This document shows positions 19,050-20,778 of a DNA stretch of 64,000 nucleotides, one piece after another. The notes under the pieces are model-generated. The model was given only the letters and a program-made list of their open reading frames with translations. It did not search any database and was not told where the DNA came from. The stretch covers positions 378,759,407 to 378,823,406 of the forward strand of contig JAVHZZ010000001.1 of the NCBI GenBank assembly GCA_036250195.1, given 5' to 3'. Made by a program: the position numbers and the translations under genes. The DNA is from Mixophyes australis. Its lineage: Eukaryota > Chordata > Amphibia > Anura > Limnodynastidae. Each line of letters opens with the position of its first letter. Position 1 is the stretch's first letter.

Positions 19050-19084
<35 letters not shown>

Positions 19085-20778
19085 AGTCAAACAAGGATAC
19101 GGCGCACAATGGTGTGTTACTAGGAATTTATCCCAGGTTCAGTGGGGAAATAATAGTATTGTCAATGGATCAAAGTTCCACGTTTGCTGGACGGTCTTAT
19201 AGGACCAAGGGTATAAGTCCAGTTTGCACATATAAAAGACAGAATAATATAGGCATAGGATTAGTAGGAGCAGTGTGTTAGTGATAGCCCATCACCATAG
19301 TATTACACACCCAAAGGAAATGATATCGCTTATCTGTGTGATTAATCCAAAGACTGGAACACAGCTTAACAACCACTTCTCTTTCAATATTATGTGGTCA
19401 GCATACTCAGCAACTGCAAGTCTGGTCTCCAGTCAAAAACATCAGCATACTGTAAACATCATATCTTTCTTCCACTCAATGGGTAAGAAAAAAAGGAGAT
19501 AATACACTATATGGTGTAGTATTTCAAGGTAACAGTATTTAATCAGGATTTAACATATAAAATGCACACTCACAAAGAGTAATAATAATGCAAGCTTATC
19601 TGAAATTCAGGTATCAGATATACCATGTCCTCAGGTACAGCAGGAACCTCCCACAATCTTCCGCACAGGATTGACTGATGGTGTGGTGACCCAAATACAC
19701 AGGAACAGTTGGAAAAGAGCCTCTACGCGTTTCGTCCTCAAACAGGACTTCCTCAGGAGGTGATAAGTGTGGCCTCTGATAAAAATGTCTGAGCAGACTT
19801 CTGTGCCCCCACGTGTAGTAGGTATTCATATACATATAGAGCTAATTTCTCCCTGGCCTGGCTGTCGGACGGTACGGGAGAAATTAGCTCTATATGTATA
19901 TGAATACCTACTACACGTGGGGGCACAGAAGTCTGCTCAGACATTTTTATCAGAGGCCACACTTATCACCTCCCGAGGAAGTCCTGTTTGAGGACGAAAC
20001 GCGTAGAGGCTCTTTTCCAACTGTTCCTGTGTATTTGGGTCACCACACCATCAGTCAATCCTGTGCGGAAGACTGTGGGAGGTTCCTGCTGTACCTGAGG
20101 ACATGGTATATCTGATACCTGAATTTCAGATAAGCTTGCATTATTATTACTCTTTGTGAGTGTGCATTTTATATGTTAAATCCTGATTAAATACTGTTAC
20201 CTTGAAATACTACACCATATAGTGTATTATCTCCTTTTTTTCTTACCCATTGAGTGGAAGAAAGATATGATGTTTACAGTATGCTGATGTTTTTGACTGG
20301 AGACCAGACTTGCAGTTGCTGAGTATGCTGACCACATAATATTGAAAGAGAAGTGGTTGTTAAGCTGTGTTCCAGTCTTTGGATTAATCATACAGATAAG
20401 CGATATCATTTCCTTTGGGTGTGTAATACTATGGTGATGGGCTATCACTAACAAACTGCTCCTACTAATCCTATGCCTATATTATTCTGTCTTTTATATG
20501 TGCAAACTGGACTTATACCCTTGGTCCTATAAGACCGTCCAGCAAACGTGGAACTTTGATCCATTGACTATACTATTATTTCCCCACTGAACCTGGGATA
20601 AATTCCTAGTAACACACCATTGTGCGCCGTATCCTTGTTTGACTTTCTATATGATTCTGGACTTACCCACCTACTATAAGGAAGGCTGCCTCCATATGTG
20701 GAAGAGGTGTATATGTGGACTTTCTCTATACTAACTTTATACAATACTGCTGTGAGCGCCATTGTTTATTACGTTTTT

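Follow-up and report, generated by a model that had tools for sequence, protein, structure and literature searches.

A probable Penelope-like retrotransposon insertion containing spliced SSBP2 exons forms a palindrome in the frog Mixophyes australis

The 64,000-nucleotide stretch of Mixophyes australis DNA analysed here (the window) contains a large palindrome, which we interpret, with a probability of about 0.8, as an insertion of a Penelope-like retrotransposon (PLE) in which a chimeric RNA with SSBP2 exons was copied by two-sided priming and the products were joined head to head. The preliminary description had considered a foldback or Harbinger/hAT-type element with a captured gene fragment. 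We abandon that classification, as the arm is a PLE terminal repeat, longer copies of the element encode a reverse transcriptase (RT), and the SSBP2 piece is spliced. The inserted piece probably has no function for the host. Its features are as follows, with a slash marking sequence borders:

19053 to 19080, no strand: left (AT)n tract, presumed remnant of the target site, from the sequence and from other copies inspected, which have (TA)n or AT-rich runs beyond their tail-less end
19077 to 19773, minus strand: left arm, the tail-less copy of the PLE terminal repeat ("core"), reading antisense on the plus strand; 98-99% identity to 40 other listed genomic matches
19729 to 19756, minus strand: hammerhead-like motif, CTGAGGA..GGACGAAAC, with CCTC/GAGG flanks and CTGA kept; by eye and by fold
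19774 to 19846, minus strand: SSBP2 exon 2, 73 nt, 100% identical to the genomic exon, borders AACAG/ATTAGC...CAGAG/gtgagt
19847 to 19875, minus strand: 29 nt of SSBP2 coding sequence preceding exon 2, intron removed, taken as the end of exon 1; from the match to human SSBP2
19854 to 19875, no strand: unique 22-bp centre, continuing the SSBP2 sequence of the left arm; from the arm alignment
19876 to 19955, plus strand: right copy of SSBP2 exon 2, preceded by 7 nt from the exon before it; from the arm alignment and genome match
19956 to 20652, plus strand: right arm, PLE core, sense; from genome matches
19973 to 20000, plus strand: hammerhead-like motif, CCGA in place of CTGA; from the arm alignment and other cores
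20653 to 20780, plus strand: PLE "tail", right side only; 97-100% identity in other copies
20781 to 20834, no strand: right (TA)n tract; from the sequence

Elsewhere, the window contains a short, MITE-like inverted repeat with 79-nt arms at 86% identity (21163-21337, also 29020-29376, with further window copies), and, where the sequence is repetitive and of low complexity, long open frames (54810-56001 and 34611-35291). Open frames on the minus strand at 41241-42485 and 43291-43839 resemble what we take to be pieces of a hAT-type transposase.

Self-comparison of the window gives arms of 777 nt (19077-19853 and 19876-20652) that are ungapped and 99% complementary, with 22 nt between them. The indel-free arms of 773 bp described earlier fall inside these, the outermost four bases on each side being ATAT, and the unique 22-bp centre at 19854-19875 is borne out by the arm alignment. 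Counting the differences between the arms, as had been proposed, gave five mismatches and no indel. In every one of them, a single arm departs from the base of the family (the left arm in three cases, the right in two), as scored against 43 other core sequences, which were cut from overlapping loci and represent somewhat fewer elements than 43. The base at core position 454 (window 20407) is private, being present in both window arms and in 0 of the 43 other cores, which implies that one type of source RNA fed both arms. The right side extends 128 bp past the arm (20653-20780) before reaching (TA)n; on the left, the arm gives way at once to (AT)n. A fold-back-read or assembly artefact is unlikely in view of the private arm differences, the one-sided 128-bp tail and the like architecture of 12/12 other inverted copies examined.

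The centre and inner arm (minus strand, 19875..19774) encode VPSDSQAREKLALYVYEYLLHVGAQKSAQTFLSE, in which 34/34 residues are those of human SSBP2 (PDB 6iwv; E 2.7e-17), so the protein search upholds the earlier reading of a 34-residue SSBP2/3/4 N-terminal piece. It is also correct that the first of these codons are present only once, in the spacer, and that the turning point of the palindrome lies inside the captured coding piece. The genomic SSBP2 exon 2, which starts at C1:80764586, matches the insert at 100% identity with the borders given above. Because the 29 nt of preceding coding sequence abut exon 2 directly in the window, from which alone the preceding exon is known, the intron between them has been removed. 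At its other border, exon 2 is joined directly after the element's AG (TTTTAG/GCCACAC), the genomic exon 2 reading CAGAG/gtgagt at this point. The core side of the junction is GCCACACTT, which in other copies is preceded by TATAAATAATCCCTGGTTTTAG, giving an acceptor of the form TATAAATAATCCCTGGTTTTAG/GCCACAC; in a chimeric RNA, the core-start sequence expected next to exon 2 of SSBP2, or of the VPS16-like gene treated below, is GCCACACTTATC. Besides the window element, a genome search with the SSBP2 piece matched only genomic exon 2 and a single paralogue at 80%. The segment was to be looked for in all copies of the arm; it is not in all of them, and the other copies examined begin either in the usual way or with a different foreign piece.

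The nature of the arm emerges from its other copies. A search of the genome (3.13 Gb, 680 contigs) with the left arm listed 42 matches, two of them the window itself, with at least 40 others at 98-99% identity (the best 40 of 470 candidates scored). Most span query positions 1-695 and end where the SSBP2 piece begins. Sixteen regions were fetched, 11 with two nearby matches and five with a single match, and the cores are inverted in 10 of the 11 two-match regions and direct in one (locus L017). Tandem copies recur every 4.7-4.8 kb, and the terminal repeats (pLTRs) occur in tandem or inverted, with an optional tail, as in PLEs. A TATA motif precedes the core. Upstream of the core, locus L015 contains an open frame of 811 residues that is 35% identical, across 667 residues, to an Anolis RT/GIY-YIG protein in which RVT_1 scores above the cut-off. 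This frame, which gave no Pfam hit and no hit against the PDB, matches 1,657 of 7,991 scored proteins, and frogs are the source of many named proteins in the 120 listed. It aligns through the C-terminal region of Anolis protein P0098, whose GIY-YIG match (E 4.5e-4) is below the cut-off; a Pfam search of the PLE family's own open frames gave no GIY-YIG hit. The L013 frame matches RVT_1 at E 1.4e-5, its 25.3 bits falling short of the 29.6-bit cut-off. In Rfam, no hammerhead match appeared at E<=10 and no family reached its gathering score; the 27 hits at E<=10 are all below gathering scores and for the most part cover the hairpin and the TA repeats. Runs of (TA)n or similar AT sequence flank the ends of the 10 inverted copies inspected, consistent with the AT-rich targets of PLEs, and the single copy L029 has no AT run at its 5' side. 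We assign the arm to the PLEs because of the RT-type open frame, the tandem spacing, the TATA motif, the hammerhead-like motif and the (TA)n or AT-rich ends. A DNA transposon or foldback element was rejected on the basis of the RT open frame and the unequal ends, as a one-sided tail differs from the equal terminal inverted repeats expected at both ends; any short target duplication would be hidden in the (TA)n runs.

As a separate observation, a predicted Hook3 isoform of Ascaphus truei (P0064) consists of the Hook3 N-terminus fused to a PLE open frame, perhaps host exons spliced to a PLE.

Exact core-start patterns, which changed copies and foreign joins deeper in the core escape, turned up seven elements whose 5' end is foreign (window, L019, L029, L047, L056, L057 and L059). 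The pattern VAGGCC... occurs at 32 places, 26 of which are the usual start with TTTCAG; the remaining six represent five elements (window, L029, L047, L056, L057). HGCC... and VTAGG... each occur at one place (L059, and L060, which is L019), and BGGCCACACTTATCACC has no match in the genome. Sources were found for six of the seven foreign pieces, and in all six the source continues with GT at the junction:

Window: SSBP2, CAGAG/gtgagt
L019: GCAATAG/gtatag; exons presumably VPS16-like, with the first exon part not seen at that place
L029: GCGTGAG/gtatgt; covers the last 75 of 87 nt
L056: AAAAAG/gtgagt; a repeat family, 97%
L057: CTGCCAG/gtaaga; intron-like sequence before the piece is kept
L059: ATACCA/gtaa; three repeat copies read

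The sources of L056 and L059 are repeat families, not named genes, and the genome search gave no source for the L047 insert. The position of a junction is ambiguous by a few bases, since host and element have AG or G in common. Five of the six pieces typed were found outside their own element (the exception being that of L047), and the other fetched PLE loci contain no match to any of the six. Each foreign piece was found with this PLE core once in the genome searches, and no amplified subfamily was seen. An inverted core lies beside the insert in 4/7 (window, L019, L047, L056), and L029, L057 and L059 have one core only within the stretches fetched. That the L059 piece might be the element's own (one of its copies is 2.4 kb ahead of a PLE core, C2:270085690/270088073) was discarded, with no match in the other fetched PLE loci. 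The GT at 6/6 source junctions, together with the exact borders of SSBP2, points to exon trapping by the PLE from a spliced template in the sense orientation.

The VPS16-like exons, whose peptide gave no hit against the PDB, are joined at one and the same end to five different partners. Apart from L019, the exon-2 end meets four further partners (L067, C5:77686766; L068, C3:238581123; L070, C3:160385252/160385571; L075, C2:58272812), in whose fetched stretches there was no match to the PLE core of the window. L070 is itself palindromic, with 527-bp arms at 98.5%.

The inverted copies also differ at their two ends in a regular manner. In 13/13 (the 10 inverted copies, the window, and L047 and L056, which were found via their inserts), core and tail are present at one end and the tail is absent at the other. 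The tail-less arm starts at core position 697-699 in 12/13 and at 678 in L019. Arm reach, measured upstream from the core start with L015 itself as the ruler, is given below as tail-less/tailed:

L009: -1358/-2468
L010: -1590/-2046
L011: -1503/-2139
L012: -1049/-1669
L013: -3083/-3245
L014: -509/-429
L015: about -3.9 kb/-429
L016: -1791/-662
L018: -1461/+11
L019: +139/into host exons
Window: both arms reach host exons

Among the 11 measured, the longer reach upstream belongs to the tail-less arm in five and to the tailed arm in six; L014 and L015 have one arm length in common (-429) and may not be independent, and L009-L011 contain further small jumps. The one-sided tail and varied arm lengths suggest two separately started cDNAs, one per target strand, that were joined head to head. 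In L017 the tail continues as TTTTTGGATATACTATAC, so that each start site would lie at an AUAU run able to base-pair with (TA)n. A more complex arrangement was seen at C4:246995578-247009867, where four cores (-,-,+,+), spaced 4.6-4.8 kb apart, apparently form a head-to-head palindrome of two tandem dimers.

A plausible pathway has three steps. The SSBP2 pre-mRNA would be spliced to exon 2, and the exon-2 donor then to the AG acceptor at the start of the PLE core, producing a chimeric sense RNA of SSBP2 exons, core and tail; the borders are exact, and the act of splicing is deduced from them. The PLE enzyme would then cut both strands of a (TA)n site, and both 3' ends would prime cDNA on chimeric RNAs, the tail start site serving one and, judging by the one-sided tail, a start site at the core end serving the other. 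Finally, both cDNAs would run into the SSBP2 exons, stop 22 nt apart and join, so that the palindrome turns inside a host exon. In Anolis, a PLE enzyme both cuts and extends the two strands, two internal start sites define its tail, and in vitro its start site shows no difference between strands (PMC11167929). Relative to that enzyme, the start sites here are AT-rich and split between the two sides, a difference that counts against the pathway.

An element copy downstream in the trapped gene, as expected for exon trapping, does not lie in SSBP2 intron 2 of the assembly. This intron is complete (9,145 bp) and has only chance-level matches to the PLE (<=23 bp), with a (TA)32 tract 181 bp in. The fetched reference is likewise PLE-free as far as 41 kb past exon 2 (to 80805999). 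The donor copy may thus have been lost, be polymorphic or lie elsewhere, or splicing may have occurred in trans. We consider it unlikely that SSBP2, VPS16-like and other pre-mRNAs donated their exons to PLE RNA made elsewhere. The PLE-free SSBP2 intron would fit such an origin, as would the lack of a PLE within about 3 kb after the L029 and L057 source donors and the five different partners at one end of the VPS16-like exons. A broader version, in which the PLE acceptor is a general receiver of host donors in trans and two-sided priming writes the chimeras, often as palindromes (at least five times for the VPS16-like exons), seems to us equally doubtful. Weighing against trans-splicing, the scan of the L029 and L057 source introns covers only those 3 kb, PLE insertions can be polymorphic or lost, and exon trapping by SVA is described as splicing to the SVA acceptor (PMC6139936).

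Returning to the join itself, a single cDNA that folds back and primes its own second strand, so that one arm is copied from the other, is in our estimation quite improbable. The tiny centre and the private base common to both arms would suit a hairpin, the turning point of L019 has 8-nt complementarity (by eye), and self-priming on antisense RNA has been proposed for Adineta PLEs (PMC3846280). However, a copied arm would need to stop at nearly the same base every time to leave the tail one-sided in 13/13, either arm can be longer, and the tail-less starts are clustered rather than scattered. The host exons, moreover, are spliced in sense, unlike a first-round antisense template, although antisense RNA of already chimeric DNA could supply them. 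We give very little credence to an RT jump from PLE RNA to host mRNA with no splicing to the element: internal jumps or deletions do occur in PLE copies (L009-L011, L047, L056), and the AG or G common to both sides of junctions would assist a jump, but 6/6 sourced junctions combine a GT donor with the same element AG. Least credible of all is a foldback or hAT/Harbinger element with gene capture, or an assembly artefact; long inverted repeats are what either would give, but an RT-type open frame lies upstream of the same repeat in L013 and L015, and the one-sided tail, spliced host sequence and varied turning points argue against both.

The PLE reading, with two-sided priming on a spliced RNA, can be set beside known systems. 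In L1 twin priming, both target strands prime cDNA, which results in an inverted 5' part. There, different parts of one RNA are inverted, whereas here both cDNAs cover the same region and yield a palindrome. In their RT-type open frame related to the Anolis RT/GIY-YIG protein, the present elements resemble known PLEs (the Adineta Pen families, PMC3846280; Anolis PAc/Poseidon, PMC11167929; and D. virilis Penelope as cited there), and also in the terminal repeat with TATA and hammerhead-like motif, the optional tail, the AT-rich target and the inverted head-to-head structures. They differ in a tail of 128 bp rather than about 31, one-sided in 13/13 inverted copies. Inverted PLE copies were already known, and the formation of head-to-head PLEs, from a sense or an antisense template, was left open in 2013 (PMC3846280); in the Adineta NRPS capture described there, introns are kept and the gene lies between pLTRs, whereas the host pieces here end at donors and join the element's AG. 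Exon trapping was likewise already known for SVA (PMC6139936): in hominid SVA_F1 (MAST2) and pt_SVA_D6 (STK40), host first exons were spliced to a retrotransposon acceptor and then retrotransposed, much as proposed here. SVA is non-autonomous, whereas the element here is a PLE, the product is palindromic in 4/7 and no amplified subfamily was seen. A literature search at the level of titles and abstracts, with subscription papers mostly outside it, gave no report of a PLE capturing spliced exons at its own AG.

The trapped, spliced exons serve as a natural strand label, pointing to a template that was spliced and in the sense orientation; the one-sided tail indicates that the two arms were started separately. 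These observations suggest that the PLEs, a poorly understood class, can trap and move host exons; if this is true, PLEs would join the retrotransposons able to do so.
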